NCBI RefSeq assembly: GCF_037392515.1
Contig: NC_090280.1
Coordinates: 19,778,618 to 19,842,617 of the forward strand
Length of the DNA: 64,000 nt
Source: Haliotis asinina
Lineage: Eukaryota > Mollusca > Gastropoda > Lepetellida > Haliotidae
Reading direction: 5' to 3'
The position numbers were made by a program, and so were the translations under genes. How positions within the stretch are numbered: position 1 is the first letter of the stretch; each line of letters begins with the position of its first letter. Below the pieces are notes generated by a model that had not been told where the DNA came from, made no database searches, and saw only the letters and a program-made list of their open reading frames with translations. Below, one piece after another: positions 24,505-56,285 of the stretch.

Positions 24505-25245
24505 ACTACATTACAACTGCACATTCATGTAGAACTAAATCAGGAAGATTGAACACGTTCCTGATTTAATTCCTTAAAAGGTACTACTCTGTGATACATG
24601 TGGAATAATTTAAAGCATCAGTGTCGTTCTGTTACTTTCAAAATACAAATGAAACCTGAAGAGGCCCTTTGCTTTTCTCCACAAAGTAAGTGCCCAGATC
24701 AAACTGGCATTAGAAGAATTGTCCATGATGCCAACAGTTTTGTGTCGTAAATGTGTGATATACAGACGTTTCCTATGATACTCAATTTCCAAGGAAGTAT
24801 CATCCAGTTTGAACATCCGAATTCAATAAAATGTTTTCAAAAACATTCTGTACAGATCTTTTTTATGCCATAATATACAACACGCTCCGATACATCAATG
24901 GTTAAAACTTGAAAACGTTTGGTTTACCAAAATGACTTGTCTTTGCCATCGTAGGACAAAAAATCCCTTGCTGACGGGACACATACAAGATTTTAGAACA
25001 TGAGTTCATATCTCAAATGAGAAACGTGATTTCTTCTGTTACCTCCTTCATATCATCCAATGATAATTTGGCATGTGCGCAAAGGGAATAGGATGATTTA
25101 TAATTCTTAAATAATAATTATGAATGGAACTTCAAGGATTAACTGTGTAGTTGCAACTGGTAAATATTGCGATCCCATCGATGTAGGAACAGAATCCTTG
25201 TCCTCGTGTAAAAATATTCTTCCACTGTTTTCTTCTTTGCTGAAT
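24505..25245 (-). pseudogene. Propeller-gene pseudogene (copy D): third exon plus 3' UTR
   Basis: On the minus strand it is colinear with the third exon of the intact genes at 29.5 and 49.2 kb. The C-terminal part is readable ('MFKLDDTSLEIEYHRKRLYI'). An internal segment of roughly 190 bp is missing after 'gacacatacaagatttt', several frames are broken, and no PAN or linker exon follows. The 3' UTR match ('gaacacgttcctgatttaat') extends to 24505. It is the most diverged copy and so probably the oldest. A foldback element has inserted beside its upstream end. Confidence 0.8.
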
Positions 25246-25290
25246 ATAATATTTCCGAATTTGTACATGTGGAATATGTAGAGATGAATA

Positions 25291-25427
25291 CACGAGCGAG
25301 TGTGTCATATTGTTTTTACGAACGAGTGTCAGAAAATTCCGTATTTCCCGTGCGAGAGCGAGAGCGCGGGAAATATGGATTTTTCTGACACGTTTCGTAA
25401 AAACAATATGACACATTCGCGAGTGTG
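25291..25427. mobile_element. Foldback element
   Basis: Two arms of about 65 bp are inverted copies, meeting near 25355: 'cacgagcgagtgtgtcatat' pairs with 'gacacattcgcgagtgtg', and 'tgtttttacgaacgagtgtc' with 'gacacgtttcgtaaaaaca'. The GC-rich centre ('gcgagagcgagagcgcggg') forms the loop. Confidence 0.8.
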
Positions 25428-25429
25428 TT

Positions 25430-27180
25430 AATTTCTTTATTATCCATTTATATCTAACTTTTTATTTCTAAACAACAAAGTCAACGTCAAACGCTGTTGT
25501 CGCTTGACTTAAAGATCAAGGTCGCGTAGGAATTCAGTGATACGTCACAATGGACGTAAACCCCCTGTGTAATGCTACTAAATGAGGAGCGCGATATATT
25601 AACTAGCTACTCTTGCATGAGGACAAAAATACAAACACGTTTTGAATTAAAATTTAATCTTTATCATCTTAAGTAACTGTAAGAATTGTATAACTGTTAA
25701 TGAGAAAGTTATTCGTCGTGAGAAGCGTCACTTTTACCTTTTCTGGAAATCTCATATCAATAAACGCAGTGTGTGAAAAATTGTTTGTTTGTAACCTTTT
25801 GTATTTGATAGCATTTCATTGGTTTGTTCTCGTTGTAGCGAATATGTAGTAAATATGTAGTACAAAATTATGAATGAAAAAAAAGTAGTTCCACATTCCA
25901 ATGGGGTCATGGAAGTCATGGTCGGATAACTGACCGATGAAATTCGTTTTAGGGTTTATTACACGTGTGCAACATATGATTTTTATGTACTCGGTTATGT
26001 TTCACTGTACGGATAAGCATCTTCAGTATTGTTTATAGGCATTTCATGCAATAGAATAGAAATTATCGACGATGAAACAGTAGTTATACAAAACTGTCTC
26101 CTGAAACGAAAAATGGTGACCCAAGGTTAAAACAAACGGAAATTGGTGCTGCAGTTTGACTGGTCGGAATTGACAAACAGATACTTTTACTTTGACAATT
26201 CGACAAGGCTGGATTAGAAAACCGTCTTAGAGGATCATCCTCAATTTTCTTGTTGGAAGAGTGTTGCAACACTCTGATATGCTTTGTTGAGCTGTACCAC
26301 AGAAGCATAGGCCGGTGTAATAAGTGAAACTTAAAGCACGGCGATTTTTATTTCGGGTGTTTGACTAAATTGAATGTGTAACAAAGGGTACCTAAACTGG
26401 TGTAATCAGTGAGTGGCGTACACCGGTTTTCATGTATAAAAGACATACAGTGTCAGTTGCAAGATCCCACATTTAAGAAATTTGCATTTTGTAAAATTAG
26501 TGACACTTCGCCTGTCCTTGTCAGTTTCAACAGCTGTGCTGCGCTGCCCCCATGACGCATGCGCAGTGAATAGGTTCGCAGAGCTTGAAACAGTATGCAT
26601 GCCCGGAGTATGAGGTCATGACAGAAGTCTAATCTTGGTTGTGTACACAAACAAGTAAACTGATCTACTCGTAACATAAAAAACAAAACGAAACACACCC
26701 CACCCCACCCCCAAAACTGTTGATTGTGGTAAGCCTGTGTCACGCAGAAAGCTCAATGCCTGGTTTACTGACACCGGTATATCTGCCTGCCTGTTTGCTA
26801 AAGAAAATATGCAATACACAGCTTCAATCATCAACCACATGCAATTTGAACTTAACACCTATTAGGCTATAGGCCATAAACAAAATAAATTGATTTATGA
26901 CTCGTGCACCCGAGTCCTGTCTGTGCCACATCAAGTAATTAGGCAGGTGTGATACTTGTACTTTATGTCTTTGGGTTGCAAACAAACTACATCCATTTTT
27001 CTGCTGATGACTGCATCTGACGGAAACTGGTGCATGCTCTTGTCAGTTTCAAGTCCTGCTTTGTACTTGGAACAATGACAGTCTCCAGCCACGCAGTAGT
27101 TTGCAGCTCATGCATTCACAACCTTGAGAACATCACTCCAAGATGTTTTTTTCAAAGCATAAGAATCAGTTCGCGTCATT
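25430..27180. other. Unassigned sequence
   Basis: AT-rich, only short frames, no exon with family resemblance. A minus-strand C-rich patch near 26695-26712 is homopolymer-like. Confidence 0.4.
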
Positions 27181-27775
27181 GTGTTAGTAATCCCCTATGA
27201 ACCAGCAACATATAACACTGACAAGTCTAAAATATTCTAGATTATTATCAAAGAGCAAGATACAAAGATGATTCGCAATAGAGGTGCCTAGTACAATGTA
27301 TCTAAGTCAAATCTAAAGTAACGGGTCACATAATATCAACTCACCAAAGTCTTGCTTTTCAGTGAAACAGTTCTACTAAATCTTTCACAACGAGCTTTCT
27401 TGAATGCAAGTCAACGCTGGCGAAGAGGCAGACAGATGTAGGTAGGCTGAATGATGACACAACTCCAGTAAAAGTTCTTTGTTTCGTCAACACAACAACC
27501 AGCCTTTATATACACAGCCACTCATTCTTGAGCATTCCAGCGAAGTTTAGAATCTTGTGATCGGCCTCGTGTTTACCGACAGTCACACCAAAGGGAGGCA
27601 ACTCTAAAGCGATATCTTAAAGGCGTGCCGCTAAAACAGTATTACCGATCATACAAAATGTTACCCATATTAACTATCACTCAAAACGCTAAACATTGTC
27701 ACTCAATGATAGCTATCACTCCATTAATAATAATACATGTTACAGAAAATATGCTGTCACAACACTGTCGTAACA
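27181..27775 (-). mobile_element. LTR-like element (probable solo Gypsy-type LTR)
   Basis: Read on the minus strand it begins 'tgttacgacag', has a TATA-like 'tatataaaggctggttgt', and continues with 'tatgtgacccgttactttag'. The same order of motifs is present on the plus strand at 41.15-41.58 kb, directly upstream of a gag-like frame. Its 5' portion is also repeated at 37.98-38.12 kb. Ends are approximate and no clear target duplication was found. Confidence 0.6.
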
Positions 27776-27829: not shown

Positions 27830-29512
27830 AGAGAGGTTTTGCTCCATTTTAAATAATGTAATAACCTTGTATTAAATACTTTTCCCTTGTATTTTATGCT
27901 TCTACACGCTTGCATCTATACGTTTGTATATACACAAGCGATGGTAGTATTTACCTTTTATACCAGTCTATCAACATGATGGAGGTGATAAATCGAACTG
28001 ATGAATGTCATGGACATATAATACACCGCAACCAGTTCACATTTTGAACAGCTTTGAAATGATAGCTTCGTAAAGTGTAGGCATGTGGGATGTGTATGGG
28101 CATATCTGCTCATCAAACTACTTGAACTACTCAAAGTCTAATTAATATTATATACTTCTTCCACATACGTTACTTGCTCACGTTCGAAGCAAGCGCACAG
28201 ATAGTTTGGGGATCCTACTGCAGATAAACTGATACATCTTCAGATTAACTGATACGTCATTTGTCCAGTGATCCATGTGATCATAACTTTGATATCGAAT
28301 CTTCTAAACCGGTTAAATTATAAATACTGCTGTCTGTTGATATGTATCATTGTGGGAACTGGACACATATCACGTATCTGGCACAGAAGCAATATGACCC
28401 AATGTCGGTACATGTTTAGCACAACTTTACTGTGCCTCCTTCTCTTCGTTTATTTCCAGACACTGGATCAAAAAGTGATCGTGAACCTGCAGTGTTTGTT
28501 TTCTAGAAACACTCTTAGCAATATTCTATTTATATTCCATTTACATGGCGGTGGCCAGTAAATATCCCGAGTCTTGGCCAGACAACCCAGTAATCTACAG
28601 CATGGGCATCAATCTGCACAACATGCGAAGGCATATGTCGTCCAAGTCAGGGAACCTGACCTCCTCGGGGAAGCATGGGTTGCTGACGACCAATTCCAAC
28701 CCTTCATCTTTACGGGGAATGTCCACAAGTGTATTGTATATCAGTATATTGCAGTAGGTTGATAGAAAGTGGCACTGATTGCACATGCAGATCCTATTTT
28801 CTGTATACTAAGGTCCCCAAAACAATCGAATGGGATGCCCCTGATAACAATCGTATTGTTTGTATGTTACTGATTAGGGCGCCAAGAATCACATGACTCG
28901 CTGAAGGGGGTTGAGGTGTGGTTTATTCAGAATTTATATCATATATGTAAGCTCCATTTGTGGAATAGAGCCTAATATATGATCCTGGTGATCTGGACCA
29001 TGTGTTCACATGTGACCTGTTTGATGTAAACTGATACCTGGGGACCTTCTTCCTTCTTGCCAAACTGTGCAGCTGTGCTATACTGAACTATTGTTAGATG
29101 AGTACATAGACTGGTGCATAGGAATTATGGAAATTTTTAATGTATCCAATTAGGAGCTATAAATTAGGATCATGTGATACAATATATTCCAAAATGTGAG
29201 AATACTCTTGATCCACGTGACTTGAAAATATGTCTAAATCTTCCAAGACAATACAACCTTTAAATCATGAAAGAATATTACATCACTCAATACCCGCACA
29301 GATGCCCGGGTTACCAACCCATCAGTCTACTCCACCATCCTTGTCAGTTCATAAATGTGATAATGTTTTGGGTTACTTCGAGTCACCCCCCTCTTTACAA
29401 CTGCACATTCAGTTAGAAAATATAACAGGACGTTTGAACACGTTAGTGGTTTAACTCATTAAAATGTAAATTTCTGTGATAAATGGGGAATAATTTAGAG
29501 GAAACATTAACG
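27830..29512. repeat. Segmental duplication unit 1, flank downstream of gene A
   Basis: Closely matches 38150-39230 plus 39830-40100 (unit 2) and 48180-49180 (unit 3). It contains an old GTGAGTGA-family SINE remnant (28540-28735). A 97-codon frame at 28268-28561 is shared among units but is best explained by DNA duplication. Confidence 0.8.
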
Positions 29513-29516: not shown

Positions 29517-32261
29517 CTAGGCACTTTCAGATTCTGGAGAATACATATAAAACCTGACGAAGTCATCTCTTCTTCTATTCCTACCATATGTCCAGATCAA
29601 ACTGAAACTTGTAGAATTGTCTATGACACCAAGATGAATCATTTTGTTCTGTATACATGTTACATATATCCGTTTCCTATGATACTGAATGTCCAAGGGA
29701 GTATCTTCAAGTTTAAACATAGGAACTGAATAAGGTGTTTTCAAACGCACTGAGTACAAAACTTTTTGTATATTATAATATAAAATACCTTCTGTTGGAT
29801 CAATGGTTAATACAGGGAAATATTGTTTGACTGTGAAAAATGACTTTTCTCTGCCTTCATACGACACAGAAAAAATACCTTTCCCACAGGACACATACAA
29901 TGTCTTATATCTTGGATATACCACAAGATTTCTATTAAAGTGATTTCGACATGATTTTATTATTTGATCGGTATTAGACCATTTCAGTGATATCTTTAAA
30001 ATGTTTCTTCTCCTAAGACTTAGAAAGATCAAACCCCAATTTTCGTCAATTGCAATTGAGTAGAAATTTTGTAAATTCGATTTCAGGACATGAGGTTGAA
30101 GATCATATGTCAAATAAGACAAAAGATTTCTTCTCTCATCACCAACATCTGTTCCAATGATAATGTGTCTTGATTCTGGCATGTATGCAAACGCTATAGG
30201 AAAATTTGGAACTCTTAAATATGTATGCAAGGATTTATTGTGTAGGTTCAACTGGCAAATATTTCTATTCCTTCGGCGCAGGAGCAGAATCCTTGTCTTC
30301 GTGTAATATTCTTCCAGTGTTTTCTTCTTTGCTGGAAAACAAAAGACACCATCAGTAGTCCTGTATTTGTTCCTGCATAATGTAGAAGGTAGACATTTTC
30401 AACACTTTTTCATGTGCTTTTAATGCAACAGAATGGAACTAGCAGTAGTTGTTATGAACTAATGTGAAAACAATTCATTAGACAACAAAATGTAAATCAA
30501 AATGTTTAAACGAATGGGATTTTAGGCTGCTACATGACTGGTTGAAAATCTTTTTCAAGTGGATACCGAATCTCAAACATCTTGAACTTGCAATGTTTTA
30601 CTAACTGGTGACACCGAGATGTTCTGGGCGCCTGTGATGTCGTACACTTTTAATTTATGTATTTTAAAGACGTCCTTTGTAATTAAAATGTGTACGTGTG
30701 TACATGAAATGTTCAAGCTATATGGCTGACACAATGCGATGCGACGTAAAACTTCAAGTCAACGTAACTGCAGAGATATATACAATTTGTATTCAAGTCG
30801 TGTACATAAAACGTAAGAAAGGTCAATGCAGCTACCGAAAACAGTGTACATGAAGCTGATGAGTTGTCAATTGCACATTATACTATTAGCCTCCAAAATT
30901 GAAAAAAAACATTTTCAAATGGCAGAAGTAGAGTTTGTTTACCAGTAGTGGGAGTAGTTACATTTGCACTGCTGCTAGAATTAGTCAAAGTAGTTGTCAC
31001 TCCAGTAGTGGAATAAGTGCTAGTTGTGGTTGCATCAGAGGTAGAGGAAGTAGCAATAGCTGTTGAGGCAGGGTCTCCGCTTTGACGAGTGGATTTGGAG
31101 GGAACAGGTGAATAGTACAAACATTTGAATTGCATTGCTCTGGTGAGTATAATGTGTGAACCATTTCGGCAGCTCTTAGAATGACCTTTAACCTGAAATA
31201 TATATAAAAAACTTCTTACCATATCTCCAACTAATATTTGTATAATATAATATATCATATAATATAATTTGTATAATATTTGCTAATAATAATTAATATG
31301 AATCTTAATGGATTCTTAAACAAGCGCCATCCAAAGATTATATATTCCCCCCTTCGTGGTAGTACTTCTTAACACGAGTAAAAGTGATGGAAACTACCGA
31401 TGTTTTGCGAATGCAAATCAATGGAAAGGAGATAACTCTGTTTTCCTTGCTCCGTCTACAAAATCTTGCGGTGACTACGAAAAGATTTGCCACTCACTCC
31501 GAAACATAAATATTGACAAAACGTTCAAATGTAGTCCCTGTGAATATAAGAAAGGGAACTACACCGCGGCGACTTCGCTAGGACAATACCTACGAGAAAT
31601 ACTGCAAAATGCAAGATTAGAATCGTTTGAGTCACACAGTTTTGCTGAAGTGTTGCCCTTCGGGCACAGGGACCGTAATCAAACGTCAACCCATGCCCCC
31701 TCGTGACTAGTGAACAATTTCTAATATATAAGTCCGAATATAAACAATGTGCAGTGACATTTCTAAAACAAAAGAATTTAACACTTGCGTCACAAAACCA
31801 TAAACACAAGCAGTTATTGAAATGGGGCTAACATGGCGGCTAGGCTTCTTTGTTTAGCGAATATATAGTCCCAAACTATCAATTACAAAATATACAGACT
31901 TACTTGATTCAAATTAGTGTGTAGCACAGGCGCCACATTATCCTAAACTGGTGTAACCAGTACAGGTGAACTGACTGTAAGCATTGGCTTATCAATGAAT
32001 CAATTTCAAGCCACTTACCCATGTGTTTTCTACACCCAACGGCGTCTCCTTTTTATCCTTGTCAATGTGACCACTACAAAGAAAGCACTTTAGTTCCAAC
32101 GCTGAAAACCTGAACGATGTGCAGCCCACATGGTGACGACACGCTTCCTTGCACATCTTTGGTCCTATCGGACTTTTATCTAGGAAAATCATTTCAAAAT
32201 ATGCAAATCCCAAAACATGTGCGATGACTCCATATTGCAACACGGTTTGAACACACGTCAT
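29517..32261 (-). CDS. PAN-like / Ser-Thr linker / beta-propeller protein, gene A (three exons)
   Basis: Minus-strand exons 32261-32019 (243 nt), 31192-30943 (250) and 30331-29517 (815) join in frame (1308 nt, 435 aa). Exon 1 starts with a hydrophobic stretch (a weak signal peptide candidate) and a PAN/apple-like Cys pattern, 'KMCKEACRHHVGCTSFRF' then 'LKCFLCSG'. Exon 2 adds two Cys and a linker rich in Thr and Ser, likely O-glycosylated. Exon 3 encodes repeats of about 40 residues such as 'NLVVYPRYKTLYVSC' and 'VLTIDPTEGILYYN', resembling LDLR class B (YWTD) blades with the YWTD motif degenerate. No membrane span is seen, so the product is probably extracellular. An in-frame stop upstream of the ATG, plus a frame difference there in gene B, supports this start. 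The function is unknown; a receptor-like binding role is inference. Domain names were assigned by eye. Confidence 0.82.
31356..31706 (+). other. Open frame antisense to gene A intron 1, function unsupported
   Basis: A 116-codon plus-strand frame inside intron 1 of gene A includes 'GNYRCFANANQWKGDNSVF' and 'FKCSPCEY'. The equivalent in gene B (50979-51185) is cut short by a frame change after the second motif. The two are also highly similar at DNA level, so conservation is uninformative. There is no clear splice context or start signal. I do not call it a gene. Confidence 0.2.
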
Positions 32262-32269: not shown

Positions 32270-33856
32270 CCTCTTTAAGATTGTGCTGCTACTGTTACAA
32301 TATGCAGCTAGTTATATCATGTGAGGCTGTCATGCGTTATTAATGTCCTGAGTATATGTATTTTCAGGGTGCTACACAACCAATGATGATCTACCCTTTG
32401 CTGTTAGCTTTCATTCGTACTGCGGCCCTTTGCTTTCAGTGCTAAAATCAGTGTTCCAGTAGTCAGGTCTCACTTTAAATTTGTTTATCAATATTGCTTC
32501 AGCTCCTGCCTTTGGTGTTCACAATTCATAACTTTGGACTCAAACATGTTCCTTTTACCATGATATCAAAGCGTGTATATTGACTCTGCATGGTTCTTGA
32601 TTTTCTTTAAAAAAAAATTTGAGGTTACAACATACAAGGCCAGAATAGAACTTTGAAAACGATTCTTGTCATGTAGAGAACGTGTCACAACGTGCACAAA
32701 TTTACACTTGAACCCTGTTTTATCCTGCTTATTCGGGTTATCAGTAGACTACCCGTTGTCTTTGGTTATGGTCAGTGCTACCAGTTAGGCAAGATATGTC
32801 CACCTATTCTCGAGTGCCTTGTGTCGTCACAAATTGATCGTGCTTCATAAACATCGTGCTTCTCGAAATCGTACAGTCGATTTTGTTCTTTTTAGAGATT
32901 TCTAGTTGACAACGGAAGGATCGTATCTTTTATGTGGTGATATTCAAATCGACCAGTTGAGTATCTTCTTGGCAGAGATTTTTGTTGACCACGGACGGAT
33001 TTTATCCCTTTTAATCAAAAGGAGGAAATCTATAACAGGTAACACGGGACCTTCGGAGATCAATAAGCACATTAAAGGAATTGAATTTTGCAAAGATCTT
33101 AATGCTAGGTGTTTCAGTTCTAATAAAAAAATGACTAATTTCAACATTCTTCGTTGGTCGAAACACCACCAAACCATGGGAAAGTAAGAATATCCTGACT
33201 GTAGATGCCCAGTGTGTGTATCCCATGTCGTCATGTTGTTTCAAAAGAGAATGTCTACCATCGATTTATTGATTTTATAATGAACTCACAGGTGTTCATT
33301 TTCATGTTTATTCCTAATGTTTTTATTTTTCTGGTGTGATATCCCATATATTTACTTAATGAAAGAAAGAATGCAGTGATGTCAACTTCTGTTTTGGAGT
33401 GTACACTCACTCCTGCATCCAGTAAATAAAATCTCGGAAGCAGATGGTTAATATGTACCAATTCATGACATGTTGGACTGGGACGCATGGTCATAGTTTC
33501 TTGTCTAAGTTTACTGTACGTTGCCGTACCCGCAACTAGGTGTTTGCACGTATTCGTGTGGCCCCCATCTGGTCATTTGTCAACGACTTCGTAGGGGTGT
33601 ACACCCAGCTTACCAGCAGCCAGCAAGGGATTAACTGGGATTAGAGGCTATGCATGAATGAGCATGCATTGCTGGTTGTTTCTTGTGTAATATCGTATTA
33701 GCGTCAGTCCAGGTGACCTATGCCAACTCAGCTCAGGTGAGTTGAACCGTGCTGTTTTCAGCGATTAGCATGGTCCAATGACATGGAACTTTTAAACAAT
33801 AACTGCTGGCAAACTGCGGACACCCCAACTAGGGACATCCATTTGTAGCCTCCTTT
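32270..33856. repeat. Segmental duplication unit 1, flank upstream of gene A
   Basis: Nearly colinear with 52180-53288 downstream on the map, except for about 460 bp (32513-32980) present only here; the first part is also repeated at 40830-41100. No exon was recognised. The block ends where the tetranucleotide-tailed LINE begins. Confidence 0.8.
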
Positions 33857-35216: not shown

Positions 35217-36513
35217 CAGTATGGTTCAAAATTATTGAGAATAGCTAAAGCATTTCATATTATTAAACGAGAACAAATCAGATGAAATTGAATGTATTGT
35301 GAAAGTGAACTGACCTTTTCATGTTGTGTAGGTAACAATTTAATATTTTATCAAGTCTCCTTGAGCTTCACGGCACAGTCTAAGACGGGTAGGCATACTT
35401 CCTATCAGAGAGGTTAGTGTCTCGTGAGTTATGCTGTCCCAGTATCGGACCACTTCTCTCTTCATGTCTTCAATTTTTGTCAACCCCTTTTGATTCACAC
35501 ATTCCTTCATCATCCCCCAAATGTTCTCAATGGGATTTAAGTCAGGACTATATGCAGGAAATGGTAATGCAGTCACATTTTTCTCCTGAAACCACTGCTT
35601 GGCATGTTTTGCGGTGTGTTTAGGATCATTATCTTGCTGCAAAATCCAGTCATTTCCATAAAACACATGTGCACTTGGAAGGAGAAAATTATCTTATATG
35701 TTAATGTAGCGTTGACTTGTCAGATTTCCCTCAAACACACACAGCGGGGTCGTTCCTAATAAGGATATCCCTCCCCATACATGAAACTTTGGGCTGTATT
35801 TAGGTCGTCGATACAACGGTGCTGACGCAGACTTTGTCCATATTTTCACATTATTGAGATATACCCATATTGAGCTTTCATCAGTGAAAATCACATTTTC
35901 CCAGTCAAAGTTTTCATGTGCCAAACACCACTCAACACGCCTGTCTTTATGTTCTTGTTTCATGAGAGGAGAAGGAATTCCAGTCTTTTTCTCCCATCCA
36001 AAATCAATCAAATTTCTTCTAACTGTAGATTTTGATACAGCTGTTGATCCCCTTTCTATCATTTCATACCTGATGTTGGAGATGCTTGCCCTTTGCTTTT
36101 TAGACGCTAAAATTCCCAGCCGGACGCGATCTGAGAAGTCCAATTTTCTGGGTCTCCCTGCTCCTTTCTGGTGCCCCAAATCCTTTCCCTCTTTAAAATT
36201 CTTCCTAATCCTATACACAGTAGAAAGAGGAGTTCCTGTTCTCTCTGCCAATGTATTTACATCATCAATTCCTTGATTACACAACTCAAAAATCAACCTT
36301 CTTTTATCTTCAGCAGACATTGTTGACAGTGCTGAGGAAAATGACGTCTGCTACAAATTCAGGGGAGGTAACTCTAATTGTACTATACTCAGTAGGCCAA
36401 GATGAGTTACCCCCCTTATACCATTACTTATTTTTAAGTACCAGTGAATCAGTTGAGGTGTTAGGATAGCTCAAAGTAAGAAGAAAAATTCTCAATAATT
36501 ATGAACCAGACTA
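35217..36513 (-). mobile_element. Tc1/mariner transposon nested in LINE 1
   Basis: About 1.3 kb, the usual Tc1 size. Terminal inverted repeats are left 'cagtatggttcaaaattatt' and right (inverted) 'tagtctggttcataattatt', both continuing 'gagaat'. TA dinucleotides flank both ends, as expected for this superfamily's TA target. Confidence 0.9.
35340..36320 (-). pseudogene. Tc1 transposase with one in-frame stop
   Basis: A single minus-strand frame of 327 codons, broken once by TAA near 35693 just after 'LTSQRYINI'. The N-terminal paired-type helix-turn-helix ('TGTPLSTVYRIRKNF', 'GAGRPRKL') is followed by the DDE core: 'VIFTDESSIW' (first Asp), 'WILQQDNDPKHTA' (second Asp) and 'SPDLNPIENIW' (Glu), with 34 residues between second Asp and Glu (DD34E). 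Everything except the stop looks healthy, so it was probably active recently. The host LINE is far more decayed. Confidence 0.9.
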
Positions 36514-37090
36514 TATATACGCCTGCATATTTAATGGATTTTTTGTGTGGAACATGCACATCACCAATTGATACATTATTGGATATAACGTTACCGTTTG
36601 AGCATTCAAAGTGTAGAACCGCACTCTTGCAGACATTGTATTGTAGCTGCCACATATGAGTATAATTTTCAGCGGTATTGAGGAGATTTTGCAGGCCTTT
36701 GGTAGAGGAACTCATCAAGGTAGTGTCGTCAGCAAGAAGTATTCCAGGGCATTTGCCCCATGGCAGGATTAAACCAGAGTCTGAATTCCCGAGTTCATAT
36801 AGGAGGTCATTAATGAATGATGTGAAAAGCCAGGCGGACATTACTCTACCTTAACCTACTCCTTGATTCACGGGGAATACATCCGAATTAAATCCCTCAA
36901 AGCATACAAATGATTTCATGGAGCTATAAGAGAGTCTTAGTATTCTCCATAGTTTACCCGTAATCCCAATATCATACAGTTTAATAAATAACCCATCAAG
37001 CCATACCCGATCAAATGCCTTTTCGTTATCTAGGAATGCACAATATACGGGCGACATCCTTTCACTGTAATATGCAATATTTTCTTTCAA
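36461..37090 (-). pseudogene. LINE 1 reverse transcriptase, central part
   Basis: Contains 'YCAFLDNEKAFDRVW' (RT motif with catalytic Asp), 'NQGVG' and, after a stop near 36850, 'LADDTTLMS' (the [F/Y]xDD catalytic box with Leu in first place). It continues to where the Tc1 element is inserted. Confidence 0.8.
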
Positions 37091-37135
37091 CGTAAGTACG
37101 GCCGTTTCAGCACCGTAGTGACGCCTAAATCCAAA

Positions 37136-37980: not shown

Positions 37981-40100
37981 ACCGATCATACAAAATGTTA
38001 CCCATATTAACTATCACTCAAAACGCTAAACACTGTCACTCAGTGATAGCTATCACTCCATTAATAATAATACAAGTTACAGGTAATATGCTGTCACAAC
38101 ACTGTCGTAACAATTGACTGACCACGGTTACAACTTCTCTCACCCTCCGCTTTTGAAAAAAAAAACTTAAGAGAGGTTTTGCTCCATTTTAAAGAATGCA
38201 ATAGCCTTGTATTAAATACTTTTCCCTTGTATTTTATGCTTCTACACGCTTGCATCTATACGTTTGTATTAACAAAAGCAATGATAGTAGTTACGTTTAA
38301 TACCAGTATATGGACATGATGGAGGTGATAAATCGAACTGATGAATGTCATGGACATATAATACACCGCAACCAGTTCACATTTTGAACGGCTTTGAAAT
38401 GATAGCTTCGTAAAGTGTAGGCATGTGGGATGTGTATGGGCATATCTGCTCATCAAACTACTTGAACTACTCAAAGTCTAATTAATATTATATACTTCTT
38501 CCACATACATTACTTGCTCACGTTCGAAGCAAGCGCACAGATAGTTTGGGGATCCTACTGCAGATAAACTGATACATCTTCAGATTAACTGATACGTCAT
38601 TTGTACAGTGATCCATGTGATCATAACTTTGATATCGAATCTTCTAAACCGGTTAAATTATAAATACTGCTGTCTGTTGATGTGCATCATTGTGGGAACT
38701 GGACACATATCACGTATCTGGCACAGAAGCAATATGACCCAATGTCGGTACATGTTTAGCACAACTTTACTGTGCCTCCTTCTCTTCGTTTATTTCCACA
38801 AATTGGATCACAAAGCGATCGTGAACCTGCAGTGTTTATTTTCTAAAGACACTCTTAGCAATATTCTATTTATATTCCATTTACATGGCGGTGGCCTGTA
38901 AATATCCCGAGTCTTGGCCAGACAACCCAGTAATCAGCAGCATTGGCATCAGTCTGCACAACATGCGAAGGCACATGTCGTCCAAGTCAGATAACCTGAC
39001 CTCTTCAGGGAAGCATGGGTTGCTGACGACCAATTCCAACCCTTCATCGTTACGGGGAATGTCCACAAGTGTATTGTATATCAGTATATTGCAGCAGGTT
39101 GATAGCTAAAGTGTTGAACAGAAAGTGGCACTGATTACACATGCAGATCCTATTTTCTATATACTAAGGTCCCCAAAACAATTGAATGGGATGCCCCTGA
39201 TAACAATCGTATTGTTTGTATAGTTAGGAGCCCTTTCCTTTTTATGCAATACACTGCATATAGGTTATGTCGTTTTGTTAATGAAAGTATTAAGCACGAG
39301 AGAAAGTGATTTAACTTAAACCATACACAAGGACAAACCTTCTAACATTTCATCATATACACCGTAATCCGGATACATGTATATTATTGTACTGAACGTC
39401 GTTTCCCTTCGGGTTCAGGGAACGCACAAGACATCAAGGGAACAGTCACTGATATTATCGGAAAATTGTCATACTGTCCATACATGCCTGAAGTGGCTGA
39501 CAATATCTGTACCATACTTTTCAACAGGTTTTTTTTTCAAGATGTTTCACAATCAGTACTCTTTCTATTGTATTGTTAAGTGATTAATATTTGAAATATG
39601 CATGTCATATAACTTACAAAACCGTATTAACATTACAAATAATATCGTATCTTCTAGGGCTGAGATGGGTCCAACGTTTCTACCCCGGGGGCCCAGCTCT
39701 GTTACCCTACCCTGATACCTGTTATGTTAATTCCTGACATACTATTTGTAAGAAATGACAATATATTCCACAGCTCGAGGCTAAACCATCGATTTTTTCA
39801 ATGTTATAACCATATCGCAATTAAATCACGTGACTTGAAAATATGTCTAAATCTTCAAAGACAATACCTTTTTAATCATGAAAGAATATTCATCACTCAA
39901 TACCCGCACAGGTGCCCGGGTTACCAACCCATCAGTCTACTCCACCATCCTTGTCAGTTCATAAATGTGATGTTGATCTGGGTTACTTCCAACCACACAC
40001 CTCTTTACAACTGCACGTTCCGTTAGAAAATATAACAGGACGTTTGAACACGTTATTGATTTATTTCCTTAAAATGTAAATTTCTGTAAGAAATGGGGAG
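37981..40100. repeat. Segmental duplication unit 2, flank of pseudogene C
   Basis: 37981-38120 repeats the LTR 5' part at 27.64-27.78 kb. 38150-39230 repeats the gene A 3' flank, including the old SINE at 38880-39060. 39250-39830 is unit-specific and unassigned. 39830-40100 matches again just downstream of the coding exon. Confidence 0.8.
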
Positions 40101-40112: not shown

Positions 40113-40828
40113 CTAGACACTTTCAGATTCTGGAGAATACAAATAATACCTGAAGAGGTCATTTATTCTTCTATTCCTACTATATGTCCAGATCAAACTG
40201 AAACTTGAAAAATTGTCTATGACACCTAGTTGAATTGTTTTATTCTGCATACATGTTACATATATCCGTTTCCTGTGATACGCAAATTCCAAGGGAGTAT
40301 CCTGGAGTTTAAACATAGGAATTGAATCAAATGTTTTCAAGCTCATTGAGTACAGACCTTTTTCTATATTATAATGTAGAACGCCTTCCGTTGGATCAAT
40401 GGTAAATGGTAAATGCGGGGAAACGTTGTTTCACTTGAAAAAATGACTTTTCTTTGCCTTCATATGGCACAGAAAATATACCTTGCTCACAGGACACATA
40501 CAATATTTTGTATCTTGGATATACCACAAGATTTCTGTGAAAGTGATTTTTTGGTCCTTTTATTATTTTGTCGGCATCAGACAAGTTCAGGGATATCTTT
40601 AAAATGTTCCTTGTCCTAAGACTTAAAAAGATCAAACGGCAATTTTCGTCAACTGCAATTGAGTAGAAAGGATTTATTGTGTAGGTTCAACTGGCAAATA
40701 TTTTTATTCCAACGGCGCAGGAACAGAATCCTTGTCCTCATATAATTTTCTTCCAATGTTTTCTTCTTTCCTGGAAAGAAAACAAATAGCACCAATAATC
40801 CTGTATTTTACTTTCACAATGTAGAAGG
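40113..40828 (-). pseudogene. Propeller-gene pseudogene (copy C): third exon only
   Basis: Colinear with exon 3 of gene B and closer to it than to gene A (for example 'PMFKLQDTPLEFAYHRKRIY' is shared). An 8-bp duplication near 40403-40418 ('ggtaaatggtaaatg') shifts the frame. About 165 bp are deleted after 'gagtagaaa' near 40668. Just upstream of the exon (40828) the sequence jumps to the flank that in gene B lies beyond exon 1, so exons 1 and 2 (about 2.1 kb) are deleted. A polyadenylation signal (AATAAA on the minus strand at 40065-40060) is retained. Confidence 0.88.
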
Positions 40829-44499: not shown

Positions 44500-45330
44500 A
44501 AGACTATAATGAACTATTTTCTATTCATTAGCTCTTGATCAAGCCCACGATACTGCTACAGGAGCTGATAACATACATTATCAACTCCTGAAGCACTTAC
44601 CAGAATCCTGTCTTCAAACTCTGTTGACTATTTTTGATGATATTTGGACATCGGGTAACTTTCCTCCCTCATGGCGTGACGCCATAGTAGTACCAATACA
44701 TAAACCTGGACGTGATCATACCGATCCATCCAGTTATCCACCTGTTTCAGTAACTAGCTGTGTTTGCATGACCATGGAACGCATGATAAATAATCGACTT
44801 GTTTGGTACTTGGAAACTAATAACCTCATAACAGATATACAGTGTGGTTTCCGTGAACATAGAAGTAATGTCGATCACTAGAATCATTTGTTAAAAACAC
44901 GCTAATTAATAAATAACACGCTGTGTCTATCATGTTTGATCTCGAAAAAGCATATGACACTACGTGAAAATATGGCATTTTAAGAGATTTACATGACTTT
45001 GGCTTGTGAGGTCGTTTGCCTCAATTTATAGCCAACTTTTTAAATGACAGACAATTCCAGGTCCGACTGGTTTCTATCCTGTCTGATCAATACAATCAGG
45101 ATCAGGGTGTTCCGCAAGGCAGTGTTTTGTCAGTCACTCTTTTTAGCATCAAGACCAACAGTTCATCTAAAATTTTAAACAATTTAATAGATGGATCGTT
45201 ATTTGTGGATGATTTTAATATTTCTTGCAGTGGGAAAAATATGCATACTATTGAAAGGCAACTACAGTTCTGTTTAAATAAAATAGATAAATGGTGTCTT
45301 GAAAACGGCTTCAAATTTTCTAAATGAAAA
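44500..45330 (+). pseudogene. LINE 2 reverse transcriptase fragments
   Basis: 'FPPSWRDAIVVPIHKPGRDH', 'CGFREHRSNVDH', 'MFDLEKAYDT', 'GVPQGSVLSVTLF' and 'SLFVDDFNIS' follow the standard order of RT motifs, including the catalytic xxDD box (FVDD). Stops occur at about 44881, 44967 and 45327. Confidence 0.8.
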
Positions 45331-45696
45331 ACCAATTGTATACACTTCTGTCATACATACAAACAACATAAAGACCCAGAACTATTTCTAAGTGGTACCC
45401 CAATCTAAGTGGTCAAGGAGGCCAAGTTCTTGGGACTCATTTTCGATTCACATCTGACCTTTTTCCCGCATATATTAATCACTAAAAGCCAAATGCCTGA
45501 AGGCACTCGATTTATTAAAAGTTGTTTCTAATTCAAAATGGGGAGGGCATCAAACTACCCTTCTTCACTTATATAGATCACTGGTCCGATCCTTCTTCCG
45601 TCTCTTGGGCTCAGAATTAAGCCATTTCTTGCTGCTTCTAGTATTGAGCCGTAAAACATATCTCCTTCACGACTTCTTTCTTCTCCTCCTTGGCAA

Positions 45697-46353
45697 TTGG
45701 TTAGACCCCAAGTGGACCTGACATTAACAACATTTAAAAAATCAGAAACTAATGAATTACAATACAAACAAGAATATAATCTATTGAAACATAAATATAG
45801 CAATTATAAATCCATATTTACAGATGGGTCCAAGGACGATGGGGCAGTAGTTTGTGTCACTGTCATTGGATCCAGAACAACATCTTCCAGATTACCAGAC
45901 AACAGTTCTATTTTTACAGCTGAAGCTAACGCCATATTAACGGCTCTTAAATATATTGACAGACACCCTAAACGTAAACAGTGTATAATCTATTCCGACT
46001 CTCTTTCTTGCCTTCAGACTATTAAAATTATTTCTTGTAAACATCCACTTTTGATTGAAATTATTGAATTGTATAATAATCTTGCTACTGGTCAGTACAA
46101 CATCGTCTTTTGTTGGTTACCCAGCCACGTGAGCATTTCCGGTAATGTAATGGCTGATCTTGCTGTTAAGGCAGCACCCAGCAAATCTGTGACACCACTT
46201 CTTATTCCATACACTAATTACAAAGCTAGCATTACATCTTACATCCGTGATCTGATGCAGAAGAAGTGGGACACCCAAGTAGGTACAAATAAATTACATG
46301 AAATTAAAACCGTATATTGGTTACACCTACTTGGGCTGTCTGTCCAGATTTGA
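45697..46353 (+). pseudogene. LINE 2 RNase H domain
   Basis: An open frame of 218 codons with all four expected acidic residues: 'IFTDGSKDDG' (Asp), 'FTAEANAILTALKYI' (Glu), 'IIYSDSLSCLQT' (Asp) and 'SISGNVMADLAVKAA' (Asp). It also has 'CWLPSHVSISGN'. This domain degrades RNA in RNA-DNA hybrids during retrotransposition. A frameshift at about 46320 separates the downstream tail frame (46298-46612). Confidence 0.85.
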
Positions 46354-47525: not shown

Positions 47526-48116
47526 AACAACAGAAACCTAGCATCGGATATTGTCCAACAACAGAAACCTAGCATCAGATATTGTCCAACAACAGAAACC
47601 TAGCATCAGATATTGTCCAACAACAGAAACCTCGCATCAGATATTGTCCAACAACAGAAACCTAGCATCAGATATTGTCCAACAACAGAAACCTAGCATC
47701 AGATATTGTCCAACAACAGAAACCTAGCATCAGATATTGTCCAACAACAGAAACCTAGCATCAGATATTGTCCAACAACAGAAACCTAGCATCAGATATT
47801 GTCCAACAACAGAAACCTAGCATCAGATATTGTCCAACAACAGAAACCTCGCATCAGATATTGTCCAACAACAGAAACCTCGCATCAGATATTGTCCAAC
47901 AACAGAAACCTAGCATCAGATATTGTCCAACAACAGAAACCTAGCATCAGATATTGTCCAACAACAGAAACCTAGCATCAGATATTGTCCAACAACAGAA
48001 ACCTAGCATCAGATATTGTCCAACAACAGAAACCTAGCATCAGATATTGTCCAACAACAGAAACCTAGCATCAGATATTGTCCAACAACAGAAACCTAGC
48101 ATCAGCTATTGTCCAA
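47526..48116 (+). repeat. 31-bp minisatellite, 19 copies
   Basis: The 'attgtccaacaacagaaacc' phase recurs exactly every 31 bp from 47550 to 48108. Most units are identical; a few carry 'cctcgcatc' instead of 'cctagcatc' (for example near 47631, 47847 and 47878), and the first and last units differ ('cggata', 'cagcta'). There are no unique spacers, so it is not a CRISPR. Confidence 0.97.
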
Positions 48117-48179: not shown

Positions 48180-49134
48180 TAGGTTTTGCTCCATTTTTTG
48201 AAACGAAGCGTAATAAACTTGTATTAAATACTTTTCCCTTGTATTTTATACTTCTACGCGCTTGCATCTATATCTTGGTATTAACAGAAGCAATGGTAGT
48301 ATTTACGTTTAATACCAGTATATTAACATACTGGACGAGATAAAATCGAACTGATGAATGTCATTGACATATAATACACCGCAACCAGTTCACATTTTGA
48401 ACAGCTTTGAAATGATAGCTTCGTAAAGTGTGGTCATGTGGGATGTGTATGGGCATATATGCCCATCAAACTACTTGAACTACTCAAAGTCTAATTAATA
48501 TTACATACTTCACATATATCACATATATCATTTTTGAAGCAAGCGCACAGATAGTTTGGGGATCTTACTGCAGATAAACTAATACATCTGCAGAAAAACT
48601 GATACATCTACAGATAAACTCATACATTATTTGTACAGTGATCCATGTGATCATATCTTTGATATCGCATCTTTTAAACTGCTTAAGTTATGTATACTGT
48701 TGTCTGTCTCTCTATGTGTATCATTGTGGGAACTGGACACATATCACGTATCTGGTACACAAGCAATATGACCCAATGTCGGTACATGTTTAGCACAACT
48801 TTACTGTGCCTCCTTCTCTTCGTTTATTTCCACACATTGGATCACAAAGCGATCGTGAACCTGCAGTGTTTGTTTTCTAAAGACACTCTTAGCAATATTC
48901 TATTTATATTCCATTTACATGGCGGTGGCCTTTGAATATCCCGAGTCTTGGCCAGACAACCCAGTAATCGGCAGCATTGGCATCAATCTGCACAACATGC
49001 GAAGGCATATGTCATCCAAGTCAGATAACCTGACCTCCTCGGGGAAGCATGGGTTGCTGACGACCAATCACACACCTCTTTACAACAGCACATTCCTTTA
49101 GAAAATATAACAGGACGTTTGAACACGTTACTGA
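48180..49134. repeat. Segmental duplication unit 3, flank downstream of gene B
   Basis: Matches 27830-29460 (unit 1) and 38160-40060 (unit 2), with deletions. It includes the old SINE remnant (48915-49065) and joins the gene B 3' UTR through a shortened segment. The LTR sequence found at the edge of units 1 and 2 is absent. Confidence 0.8.
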
Positions 49135-49181: not shown

Positions 49182-52164
49182 CTAGACACTTTCAGATTCT
49201 GGAGAATACAAATAATACCTGAAGAGGTCATTTATTCTTCTACTCCTACTATATGTCCAGATCAAACTGAAACTTGAAAAATTGTCTATGACACCTAGTT
49301 GAATTGTTTTATTCTGCATACATGTTACATATATCCGTTTCCTGTGATACGCAAATTCCAAGGGAGTATCCTGGAGTTTAAACATAGGAATTGAATCAAA
49401 TGTTTTCAAGTTCATTGTGTACAGAATTTTTTCTATATTATAATGTAGAACGCCTTCCGTTGGATCAATGGTAAATGCGGGGAAACGTTGTTTCACTTTA
49501 GAAAATGACTTTTCTTTGCCTTCATATGACACAGAAAATATACCTTGCTCACAGGACACATACAATATTTTGTATCTTGGATATACCACAAGATTTCTGT
49601 GAAAGTGATTTTTTGGTCCTTTTATTATTTTGTCGGCATCAGACAAGTTCAGGGATATCTTTAAAATGTTCCTTGTCCTAAGACTTAAAAAGATCAAACG
49701 GCAATTTTCGTCAGCTGCAATTGAGTAGAAATCTTTTAAATTCGATTTTAGAACATGAGGTTGAAGATCATATGTCAAATAAGACCAAAGATTTCTTCCC
49801 TGATCACCAGCATTTGTTCCAATGATAATCTGTCTTGATTCTGGCAAGTATGCAAAAGCTATAGGAAAATTTGGAACTCTTAAATATGTATGTAAGGATT
49901 TATTGTGTAGGTTCAACTGGCAAATATTTTTATTCCAATGGCGCAGGAACAGAATCCTTGTCCTCATATAATTTTCTTCCAATGTTTTCTTCTTTCCTGG
50001 AAAGAAAACAAATAGCACCAATAATCCTGTATTTTACTTTCACAGTGTAGAAGGGAGACATTTACAACACTCATGCGCTTTCGATGCAACAGAATTGAAA
50101 CAGCAGTCGTTCTTATAAACTAATGTGAAAACAATTCATAAGATAACAAAATGTAGATCACATGTTTAAACGAATGGGATTTTAGGCTGGTTGAAAGTCT
50201 TTTTCATGGTGATATCGAATCTCAAACACCTTGAACTTGCAATGTTTTACTAACTAGTGACACTGAGTTGTTCCGGGCGCCTGTTATGTTGTACACTTTT
50301 AATTTATTCATTTTAAGGACGTCTTTTGTAATTAAAATGTGTACATGAAATGTTCATGCTGTTTGGCTGAAACAATGCCAGTGCGACGTAAAACTTCAAC
50401 TCAGCGTAACTGCAGAGATAAATTATACAATTCGTGTACAAAAAACGTAAGAAAAGTCAGTGCAGCTATCGAAAAAAGTGTACATAAAGCTGATGAGTTG
50501 TCACTTGCACATTATACTATTAGTCTCCAAAATTGAAAGAAATGTTTTCAAATGGCAGAAGTTTCTTTACCAGTAGTTGGAGTAGTTACTCTTGCACTGC
50601 TGCTAGAATTAGTCAATGTAGTTGTCACTCCGGTAGTGGAATAAGTGCTAGTTGTGGTTGCATCAGAGGTAGAGGAAGTAGCAATATCTGTTGAGGCAGG
50701 GTCTCCGCTTTGACGAGTGGGTTTGGAGGGAACAGGTGAATAGTACAAACATTTGAATTGCTTTGCTCTGGTGAGAATAATGTGTGAACCATTTCTGCAG
50801 TTCATAAAATGACCTTTAACCTGAAATATATATATCTTACTTTATCTCCAGCTAATATTTGTATGATATAATTTGTATAATATTTGTTAATAATAATTAA
50901 TATGAATCTTAATGGATTCTTAAACAAGCGTCATCCAAAGATTATATATCCCCCCCCCCCCACCCCCACCCCCCTTTCGTGGTAGTATTTCTTAACACGA
51001 GTAAATCTGATGGAAACTACCGATGTTTTGCGAATGCAAATCAATGGAAAGGAAATAACTCTGTTTTCCTTGCGCCGTCTTCAAAATCTTGCGGTGACTA
51101 CGAAAAGATTTGCCACTCACTCCGAAAAATAAATTTTGACAAAACATTCAAATGTAGTCCCTGTGAATATAAGACATGGAACTGAACCGCGGCGATACCT
51201 ACGAGAAATACTGCAAAATGCAAGATTCGAATCGTTTGAGTCACACAGGTTTGCTGAAGTGTTACCCTTCGAGCACAGGGACCATAATCAGACACTGAGA
51301 GTACGTCAACCCATGTCCCCTAGTGACTAGTGAACAATTTCTAATATATAAGTGCGAATATAAACAATGTGCAGTGACATTTTTCAGCAAAGCCTTTAAC
51401 ACTTGCGTCACAAAACCATAAACACAAGCAGTTATTGAAATGGGGCTAACATGGCGGCTAGGCTTCTTTGTTTAGCGAATATATAGTCCCAAACTATCAA
51501 TTACAAAATATACAGACTTACTTGATTCAAATTAGTGTGTAGCACAGGCGTCACATTATCCTAAACTGTTGTAACCAGTACAGGTGAACTGACTGTAAGC
51601 ATTGGCTTATCAAAGAATCAGTTTCAAGCCACTTACCCATGTGAGTGAGTGAGTGAGTTTAGGTTTACGTCGCACTTAGCAATATTCCAGCTATATGGCG
51701 ACGGTCTGTAAATAATCGAGTCTGGACCAGACAATCCAGTGATCAACAACATGAGCATCGATCTACGCAATTGGGAACCGATGACATGTGTCAACCAAGT
51801 CAACTAGTCTGACCACCCGATCCCGTTAGTCGCCTCTTACGACAAGCATAGTCACCTTTTATGGCAAGCATGGGTTGCTGAAGGCCTATTCTACCCCGGG
51901 ACCTTCACGGGTCCCACTTACCCATGTGTTTTCTACACCCAACGGCGTCTCCTTTTTATCCTTGTCAATGTGACCACTACAAAGAAAGCACTTTAGTTCC
52001 AACGCTGAAAACCTGAACGATGTGCAGCCCACATGGTGACGACACGCTTCCTTGCACATCTTTGGTCCTATCGGACTTTTATCTAAGAAAATCATTTCAA
52101 AATATGCAAATCCCAAAACATGTGCGATGACTCCATATTGCAACACGGTTTCAACACACGTCAT
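49182..52164 (-). CDS. PAN-like / Ser-Thr linker / beta-propeller protein, gene B (three exons)
   Basis: Exons 52164-51922, 50820-50571 and 49996-49182 have exactly the sizes of gene A (243, 250, 815 nt), the same phases and an uninterrupted 435-codon frame. Exon 1 differs from gene A by one residue (Glu for Gln at position 5). The linker differs at about seven positions, while the propeller differs at about 59 of 235. Blade motifs include 'PIAFAYLPESRQIIIG', 'IAADENCRLIFLSLRTRNIL', 'NLVVYPRYKILYVSC' and 'AFTIDPTEGVLHYN'. A SINE lies immediately after the exon 1 donor but leaves GTAAGT intact. Conserved frame and splice sites argue that both copies are functional. The role is unknown; secretion and ligand binding are inferred. 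Confidence 0.82.
51644..51913 (+). mobile_element. SINE inserted at the gene B exon 1 splice donor
   Basis: Full-length GTGAGTGA-family SINE flanked by the 15-bp direct repeat 'ccacttacccatgtg' (51629-51643 and 51914-51928). Gene A shows the empty site at 32011-32025. The repeat contains the end of exon 1 and its donor (minus strand ACATGG|GTAAGTGG). Confidence 0.95.
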
Positions 52165-52179: not shown

Positions 52180-53288
52180 AAGAGATTGTGGTGCTACTGT
52201 TACAATATGCAGTTAGTTATATCATGTGAGGCTGTCATGCGTAATTAATGTCCTGAGTATACGCATTTTCAGGCTGCTACACAGAAGATCAAAGGATATT
52301 CTGCCCTTTGCTTGCAGTGTTAAAAATCTCTCTACAATAATAACAAGGGAGATGATAGTCGTGTACCAGTAGTCAGGTCTCACTTTAAATTTGTTTATCA
52401 ATATTCCCTCAGCTCATGCCTTTTTGTTGACCACGGACGGATTTTATCCCTTTTAATCAAAAGGGGGAAATCCATAACAGGTAACACAGGACCTCCGGAG
52501 ATCAATAAGCACATTACCTTTTGCAAAGATCTAAATGTTAGTTGTTTCAGTTCTAATTAAAAAAAATTTCAACATTCGTCGTTGGTCGAAACACCACCAA
52601 ACCATGGGAAAGTAAGAATATCCTGACTGTAGATGCCCAGTGTGTGTATCCCATGTCGTCATGTTGTTTCAGAAGAGAATGTCTACCATCGATTTATTGA
52701 TTTTATAATGAACTCACAGGTGTTCATTTTCATGTATATTCCTAATGTTTTTATTTTTCTGGTGTGATATCCCATATATTTACTAAATCAAAGAAAGAAT
52801 GCAGTGATGTCAACTTCTGTTTTGGAGTGTACACTCACTCCTGCATCCAGTAAATAAAATCTCGGAAGCAGATGGTTAATATGTACCAATTCATGACATG
52901 TTGGACTGGGGACGCATGGTCACAGTTTCTTGTCTAAGTTTACTGTACGCTGCCGTACCCGCAACTAGGTGTTTGCACGTATTCGTGTGGCCCCCATCTG
53001 GTCATTTGTCAACGACTTCGTAGGGGTGTACACCCAGCTTACCAGCAGCCAGCAAGGGATTAACTGGGATTAGAGGCTATGCATGAATGAGCATGCATTG
53101 CTGGGTGTTTCTTGTGTAATATCGTATTAGCGTCAGTCCAGGTGACCTATGCCAACTCAGCTCAGGTGAGTTGAACCGTGCTGTTTTCAGCGATTAGCAT
53201 GGTCCAATGACATGGAACTTTTAAACAATAACTGCTGGCAAACTGCGGACACCCCAACTAGGGACATCCCTTCGTAGCCTCCTTTACA
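52180..53288. repeat. Segmental duplication unit 3, flank upstream of gene B
   Basis: Colinear with 32270-33856 apart from an indel of about 460 bp. It ends at 'cctcctttacag', exactly where the LINE 1 tail begins in unit 1, so this marks the pre-insertion sequence or the duplication edge. Confidence 0.8.
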
Positions 53289-53900: not shown

Positions 53901-53904
53901 GAGT

Positions 53905-54449: not shown

Positions 54450-55760
54450 TTTTATAGAGGACTCACCACAAGGAGATTGCTCTACATGAGTGTCGTAGCG
54501 ATCGTGTTCAGCTTGGCTGAAATTCATTCAACATTTGATATTTAACAGTAATATCCAGTAAGGGGTCTATGTTTAAGACAATGAATATCCCCTTTGTCGA
54601 CTGGAAACGTCAGTCTTATTGCAGGGCCAAGATAGTCTGAAGTATGCACGACTGCATCATACCACCATGAAAATATAAAATTATCTATATTTCATATAAC
54701 TTCAGCATCATCTATTCCATTACCACAAGGAACAGGTGGGCAGTCCAGCCCTTTGTAGGTCAAAGAGAGGCACATCTGCGTGGTTATATGTTCAACTGAA
54801 GCACTTTGTTGGGCAGGTTTGGATGTGGGAAAACGAAGTGAACACAGACATTAAAGTTAAGGTACAGAGAATACTGAATGACAGACACCCATATACATCC
54901 GAGTAATATATCAGAGACACAGTTTCTCTGCTGTAAGATTCCCAAACGACCTGTGTGATTGCATCGAACATGATTAAATAATATATGTGCAAGAATAACG
55001 TCACATTAATTAGACTTTGAGTAGTTCAAGTAGTAGGGTAGACAGAGTACGTGCACACGTTTCACGTAAGGATGACTCTAAGCAGAACACTTGACATTAA
55101 ATATTGCTGTTAAGGAACCTGGCACAAAACGTGAAGAACATACACACATGACTGACTATCATCAGGGGACTAGGAGTAGTACCACGGACATACATAGCGT
55201 ATGGGCAAGTTTCGCGAAAAGATCATTAACGGGATATTCAAACGAGGGCTGGTTCCGGTGAGTTTTAAAGTGGTGCAAGTATAATACCTTCTCCATCAGC
55301 TCAACATCGCCATCATATCTACCATGAAATGTATTGATTATTTTTATTATTATTATTATTAATTTTTGCAACCATGAGGCCTCAATAAATAAAAAACCCA
55401 AGCTATCGTACACACACTGAAATCTTTGTGAACGATTCAAGTTTCAACGTGTTGCAAAAGTTTCACATGTAAATAGAGGCGCTGCGTAAATATTACTTGG
55501 AAACATGAGTATTGCATCATTTGAACGTTTCACAAAAGTCTACAGGACGAGTGAATGCAACCACCCTAGGAAAGAATCTAACTGGCTCTTTATTTTTCTG
55601 ACTGCATGAAGATGCGTGTGCTTAAGACGAATGACAACATCATGTGACAACGCTGTATGTCCTGACAATAGTAACACAATTGCATCTGCTAGAGACGAGT
55701 CATGAGAAAGAGGATGTTCAAAACATTCTAGAATTAGGTGTTCTCGCTCAGGTTTTGGGA
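54450..55760. other. Unassigned sequence
   Basis: No exon recognised. A short (TTA)n run lies at about 55340-55362. Confidence 0.4.
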
Positions 55761-55767
55761 TTTGGAA

Positions 55768-56130
55768 TGAATGAGTGAGGTAATATTTTACGTCACATCG
55801 GCAATATCTCAGCCATATCGTGACGAAAACAATTTATGTGAGAAAAATGAAAGCATTTTGAAGAATATAACCTGTCACGACAGACAGAAAAATACGAGGC
55901 TATCACAGATATGGATATAAAACTAGCAGTCTAGTAATTAATGCAGGCAATACTATATACAACACGGGCTATAAATCGCCAACAACTGAAGGTTGACCAC
56001 CATACTAGCTGGACAGTAAAACAGTAGCGCATGATAGATATAAACATAAAACTAGCATGTGAGATTAAAACAGTGTAATTAAAGAAGACAACAGTACACA
56101 ATAGAATAAGACGGGCTATAGGTCGCCAAC
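55768..56130. repeat. SINE fragment and imperfect tandem duplication
   Basis: 'gtgaggtaatattttacgtc' and 'ggcaatatctcagccatatc' (55776-55825) are a diverged SINE core. Two following segments each contain 'gatataaa', 'aaactagca' and the ending 'acgggctata.gtcgccaaca' (near 55970 and 56110), forming a duplication of about 140 bp. Confidence 0.5.
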
Positions 56131-56179
56131 AAATTTTGGATTTTCATGCTGCGAGGACATCTGTATAGAGGCGCCAATT

Positions 56180-56285
56180 TGAGCCAATGATGTGCAAGGA
56201 TGCGTGGCATTACACCATGTGACACATGTCTTACTGTTTCTCAGCTTTGGAACTGAGGTGCTTTCATTGTAGTGAACATGAAATT
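56180..56285 (+). pseudogene. Relic of the PAN-like exon, opposite orientation
   Basis: The plus-strand reading 'EPMMCKDAWHYTM', a stop, then 'SYCFSALELRCFHCSEHE' aligns with 'GPKMCKEACRHHVGCTSFRFSALELKCFLCSGH' (quoted in part) of genes A and B exon 1. It has an in-frame TGA and lost Cys positions. It indicates that the family once extended further and in the other orientation. Confidence 0.7.

Follow-up and report, generated by a model that had tools for sequence, protein, structure and literature searches.

In snails, the FREPs/FReDs form a multigene family with an N-terminal module, a coiled-coil spacer and a C-terminal recognition domain, and one snail FREP bears a PAN/Apple domain (accessible text of PMC7588048). 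Here we describe two genes, A and B, of the abalone Haliotis asinina that belong to a family with a comparable layout. They lie within a 64,000-nucleotide (nt) stretch of contig NC_090280.1 (positions 19,778,618 to 19,842,617), hereafter the window, whose first letter is position 1. As far as the accessible FREP description goes, the two systems are alike in being multigene and in joining an N-terminal module, a spacer and a C-terminal domain, but the head is here a YWTD-type propeller. No Pfam match to fibrinogen or immunoglobulin domains of the FREP/FReD type was found in the gene A product. Among propeller proteins, tachylectin-2 is a lectin of five blades. A coral tachylectin-2-like gene exhibits positive selection and rapid amino-acid change, with a proposed immune recognition role (excerpt of PMC2880987); the abalone genes share the propeller with it but belong to a different propeller family, and positive selection is reported for the coral gene only. 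Expanded LDLR-class-B and LRP1B/LRP4 groups are described in bivalves (PMC8382680, PMC9993606); these carry the same propeller-type label, and the portions of these papers available to us mention neither a PAN nor a coiled-coil architecture. A family combining PAN and a YWTD propeller was not found in the open-licence literature by title and abstract start, which is weak evidence of absence. The pairing is nonetheless built from known modules.

Genes A and B each encode a 435-amino-acid (aa) product on the minus strand, in three exons of 243, 250 and 815 nt; the borders are GT-AG, and the introns are of phase 0 and phase 1. The rebuilt models give exactly the exon sizes that a preliminary description of the window had listed for two intact genes. 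By the gene model, exon 1 of gene A (51922-52164) contains the start codon, a hydrophobic signal-peptide-like N-terminus and the PAN core cysteines; exon 2 (50571-50820) contains a C..G..II...C motif followed by a serine/threonine-rich (S/T-rich) linker (about 50736-50571); and exon 3 (49182-49996, including the stop) encodes, by the gene and structure models, a six-bladed YWTD-type propeller. The corresponding exons of gene B are located at 32019-32261 (99% identical to A), 30943-31192 (95%; linker at about 31108-30943) and 29517-30331 (propeller exon including the stop; 87% DNA identity).

The propeller of the preliminary description is strongly supported. The AlphaFold model of exon 3 has a predicted local distance difference test score (pLDDT) of 85.4 and a predicted template modelling score of 0.84, and DSSP assigns to it 24 strands of at least 3 residues, that is, six four-stranded blades. 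Its nearest folds, found with Foldseek and VIA, are LDLR, ApoER2, nidogen, LRP4 and LRP6, at sequence identities of only 9-16%. A profile built from 28 paralogues matches LRP2 (E-value = 7e-59, over several stretches), LRP4 (2e-20), LRP6 (3e-12) and nidogen (1e-3). According to the model, exon 3 is a six-bladed YWTD-type propeller closed by a C-terminal strand. It has the same fold as the propellers of LDLR, LRP2/4/6 and nidogen, whereas its YWTD motif appears degenerate by eye. Gene A exon 3 alone gave no match to PDB sequences at E-values up to 5. The Pfam profile Ldl_recept_b, proposed in the preliminary description as a check, matched neither the gene A product at E-values up to 5 (search filters drop most matches above 0.1) nor any of 28 family propellers at E-values up to 0.1. 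Pfam DUF5050 weakly matches 12 of the 28 (best E-value 4.7e-4; one observed score is 16.2 bits, below the cut-off of 27), and an NCBIfam search returned weak propeller-like and chance matches only. EGF and LDLR-A modules had no Pfam match within the 435-aa gene A product.

The PAN and linker assignments of the preliminary description stand in part. The PAN core pattern C-x3-C-x5-C-x11-C is present, with C37, C41, G46, C47 and C59 invariant in all 16 aligned PAN exons, and 13 of these match Pfam PAN_1 at E-values up to 0.1. The match is borderline: exon 1 of gene A alone scores 21.6 bits and the whole protein 18.3, around the curated cut-off of 21.4, and structure prediction yielded no confident fold. 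Foldseek searches with this weak model placed four chains of the Sarcocystis lectin SML-2 at the top, without significance (best E-value 1.5); SML-2 is an apple-domain protein. The window genes and several paralogues differ from PAN/apple domains in the extra C..G..II...C piece carried on the next exon. The linker of the window genes is 59% S/T over 49 residues, consistent with a mucin-like character, but this feature is not general, since exon 2 measures only 82-100 nt in the four paralogues for which both borders were called (C6b, C7 and two on contig C13). An exon 2 that carries a long S/T linker is thus seen in the window pair only, although the propeller exon of the C7 gene begins, by eye, with a stretch of moderate S/T content. 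In the product, hydrophobicity is highest in stretches that all lie near residues 7-28, and the A and B products are probably secreted.

Comparison of A and B indicates that the proteins are under constraint, though weak. Their coding exons show 121 differing sites and not a single indel, where 19.4 indels would be expected from the intron ratio between the two genes (17 indels to 106 substitutions). None of the differences creates a stop, against about 6.1 expected from 121 random changes. The ratio of nonsynonymous to synonymous rates (dN/dS) is 0.68 overall. One could argue instead that A and B belong to a dying branch, their frames still open only through recent duplication and gene conversion. 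The weak purifying signal, the three propeller relics that adjoin the genes, and an exon 1 that holds little information with its 2 differing sites would all agree with this. The lack of indels and stops, together with splice borders intact in both genes, makes it very improbable.

The divergence between the two genes is not uniform. Synonymous distance is 0.02 in exon 1, 0.08 in exon 2 and 0.19 in exon 3, and the identities of introns 1 and 2 are 0.95 and 0.88. This gradient suggests that the 5' end has undergone recent or patchy gene conversion or a mosaic duplication. The "divergent propellers" of the preliminary description are therefore partly a matter of age, and selection on the propeller alone was rejected as the cause of exon 3 divergence, because the synonymous distance climbs alongside.

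The combination is not confined to the window. We searched the whole 1.14-Gb genome with four propeller and three PAN queries and merged the hit tables of all but the last propeller search, obtaining at least 127 propeller places and at least 58 PAN places of the same subtype; these numbers are lower bounds and count places, decayed copies included, rather than working genes. The last search shows five further propeller places beyond the 127. At 30 of the 58 PAN places a propeller follows within 8 kb downstream on the same strand, as opposed to a single case on the opposite strand (either side); an upstream propeller on the same strand accompanies 9 of the 58, as expected from tandem arrays. 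Two more pairs recognized by eye, C1:54661926 (its propeller with stops) and C14:47347819, bring the paired places to 32 of 58, spread over seven contigs (C1, C2, C6, C7, C12, C13 and C14). Stops occur in some paired propellers, such as C6:46813634. Among the 26 unpaired PAN places, a group of PAN exons at C13:50440948-50578258 has no propeller match nearby. Given the absence of indels and stops between A and B and this same-strand pairing across the genome, a chance origin of the observation is very unlikely.

Propellers of other branches are 18-24% identical to that of gene A, and the stem of the window pair measures 2.31 changes per site in the family tree, its placement being unsure owing to long branches. 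By these comparisons the window pair forms a single divergent branch of a large family. A local novelty of two genes was rejected in view of the many further PAN and propeller places; the combination itself is real and recurrent. That description was right and understated in its observation and partly right in its interpretation.

The size and divergence of the family also bear on a different function, in which the molecule would be a matrix or mucus adaptor: a nidogen-like propeller would hold a matrix partner, PAN and the glycosylated linker would join mucus, shell or egg-coat layers, and expansion would reflect tissue-specific secretion and not non-self recognition. Nidogen is among the nearest folds, and among 58 profile-match rows nidogen alone has a best stretch that covers almost the whole length (14-261 of 264); the S/T-rich stretches and the basic propellers (isoelectric points 9.6-9.8) fit as well. 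Matrix adaptors, however, tend to be conserved and low in number, which is at odds with at least 127 propeller places and with identities as low as those given above, and we consider an adaptor function unlikely.

Splice sites of paralogues, called by pattern only, suggest that the intron phases of A and B are common to several paralogues. A phase-0 acceptor before exon 2 is seen in six of them (three on C6, one on C7, two on C13) and a phase-1 donor after exon 2 in five (C6b, C7, C1:40 and two on C13). The phase-1 acceptor before exon 3 is present in C6a, C6b, C6d and C1:54, while C7 and the two C13 genes have it among several candidates. The phase-0 donor after exon 1 was found only in C6b and C1:40; no donor was found there in C6d and C7, and only phase-1 candidates in C6a and C1:54.

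In a sister class of the family, the propeller is likely joined to a coiled coil, and the proteins are probably secreted. By eye, we counted about 42 propeller places in frames of at least 380 aa, of which 15 were read. These 15 propeller proteins are single open frames of 403-548 aa, with a signal peptide by eye in all but L022. Their N-terminal part is rich in heptads, exceeding all 60 shuffles in 12 of 15 (L016, L022 and L026 fail), and the 45 residues preceding the propeller contain 16-49% S/T. Places of this class include C1:61-85 Mb, C4:70.26 Mb, C16 and C9, besides others. In the tree, 14 of the 15 fall in one starred clade, with L031 outside, and the PAN-type propellers are deep and scattered; this tree is midpoint-rooted with long branches and cannot order the PAN and coiled-coil forms by age.

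Amino-acid change is concentrated on one side of the propeller. The top face was defined as the D-A and B-C loops before counting, and a greedy choice among 48 propellers gave 18 disjoint paralogue pairs (36 propellers used). All 18 pairs have more nonsynonymous change in their top than in their bottom loops, and 17 have more in top loops than in strands, the exception being L032/L081; synonymous rates show no difference between the faces (P = 0.69, 18 pairs). An earlier comparison of four sets, made without a guard against gaps, went in the same direction. With L076/L077 dropped as a near-duplicate of L075/L078, dN/dS over the remaining 17 pairs is 1.07 for top loops, 0.52 for bottom loops and 0.56 for strands. 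Taken singly, 7 of 12 top loops exceed 1, none significantly, and the bottom loop A6-B6 reaches 1.87. These ratios suggest a top face that is unconstrained on average, on which diversifying selection is possible. Contacts of LRP6 with peptide are named as E51/D52, L95 and E115 (accessible part of PMC7585440); by an approximate residue offset from the structure match, they fall in or beside such top loops.

Our preferred explanation is that these genes form a secreted recognition or adhesion multigene family organised like FREPs, to which we assign a probability of roughly 0.5. The build would be FREP-like, with an exchangeable N-terminal module, a helical or mucin-like spacer and the propeller as C-terminal recognition head. 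The PAN module may dock or oligomerise the protein, the linker may be O-glycosylated and serve as a stalk, and the top face, whose D-A and B-C loops are where LRP6 binds peptide ligands, may bind the partner. Copies would be turned over by tandem duplication, gene conversion and pseudogene formation.

Several observations weigh against this explanation. The top-loop dN/dS of 1.07 does not significantly exceed 1 (P = 0.27). Independence of the pairs is incomplete, since the three on C12 compare near-copies (identities 0.93-0.996) and several on C1 belong to the same clade, so that the sign test and chi-square on 18 pairs overstate the case. In a human-mouse control with LRP2, covering 475 aligned residues, a part of the protein, differences per residue were 0.333 in top loops, 0.204 in bottom loops and 0.181 in strands (top versus bottom, P = 0.049); by this comparison the tilt towards the top face is, in part at least, a common property of YWTD propellers. 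Because this control tilts similarly, top-loop variability alone was rejected as proof of diversifying selection. The model of the PAN part is of low quality (overall pLDDT 57; 72-77 within residues 31-60), and by eye A and B have a weak signal peptide. Some paralogue splice candidates exhibit other phases, and those of C1:40 before exons 2 and 3 lack the expected ones.

A probably secreted, fast-changing and recently duplicated family could also serve reproduction, as gamete, seminal or egg-coat recognition proteins of a free-spawning snail. That such evolution occurs in this genome is indicated by its egg-lysin family, which is not known outside abalone and related vetigastropods: six matches above the curated cut-off were found, all at C14:26671878-26918244, and none in 14 control genomes. 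The lysin exons and a propeller frame of coiled-coil size (C14:27260053, 531 aa) are about 0.34 Mb apart. Neither the window pair nor the large propeller groups share a contig with the lysin exons, however, and we regard a reproductive role as rather improbable. A tentative and more doubtful extension of the FREP-like recognition reading is that the snail lineage possesses a large innate recognition repertoire in which the YWTD-type propeller, elsewhere a part of giant receptors and matrix proteins, would act as a free diversifying head with alternative N-termini (PAN, coiled coil or none), as FREPs use fibrinogen heads; the window pair would add a mucin-like stalk.

Other features of the window bear on the turnover of copies. 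Translated searches recovered the two propeller pseudogenes and the PAN relic of the preliminary description. The propeller pseudogene near gene A (40116-40771, minus strand) has an internal deletion and a frameshift, and 97 aligned residues are 96% identical to A; no PAN exon match was found upstream of it at E-values up to 1 in the translated window search. An older propeller relic with several stops lies at 24622-25240 (minus strand), and a PAN-exon relic with one stop at 56169-56279 (plus strand). A third propeller relic (58211-58408, plus strand), outside the region and list of the preliminary description, follows this PAN relic about 1.9 kb downstream on the same strand, and the two are perhaps one decayed gene in opposite orientation to A and B. 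The birth and death of copies proposed earlier is borne out. Repeats flank gene A on both sides. Those at its 3' side (families D2 and D5, 48343-49003) are common to 27990-28629 and 38330-38969, at a spacing of about 10 kb, and those at its 5' side (families D6 and D7, 52565-53208) recur upstream of gene B at 33137-33779 with 98-99% identity. The roughly 10-kb spacing suggests segmental tandem duplication.

Other repeats were noted nearby. A 267-bp repeat with a CTCACTCACT tail occurs at 51647-51913, inside intron 1 of A and not of B, and at 42013-42279 (95% identity); this CTCACTCACT-bearing repeat resembles abalone short repeats. A minisatellite of about 19 copies of a 31-bp unit (98% match, 47526-48116) lies about 1 kb downstream of gene A. 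The window further contains a Tc1/mariner-like transposase (35343-36350, minus strand; DDE_3 above its cut-off, transposase helix-turn-helix models just below theirs) and reverse transcriptase/RNase H fragments at 36854-37135 (minus), 44513-46353 (plus) and 63034-63495 (plus), for which RNase_H and the last RVT_1 match exceed their cut-offs and the other two RVT_1 matches do not. An open frame at 5607-5999 (plus strand) looks by eye, from its motif, like a piece of a peptidoglycan recognition protein, with no confirmation from Pfam.

If the proposed role is true, H. asinina would possess a recognition family of at least 127 places that the Pfam LDLR-B model does not detect in the 28 members tested, and this might be the reason that such genes go without a name or are classed with LRP. 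The family would then parallel the snail FREPs and offer, in its top-face loops, a well-defined surface for tests. Even without a recognition role, the genome documents that PAN modules and YWTD-type propellers are repeatedly paired.

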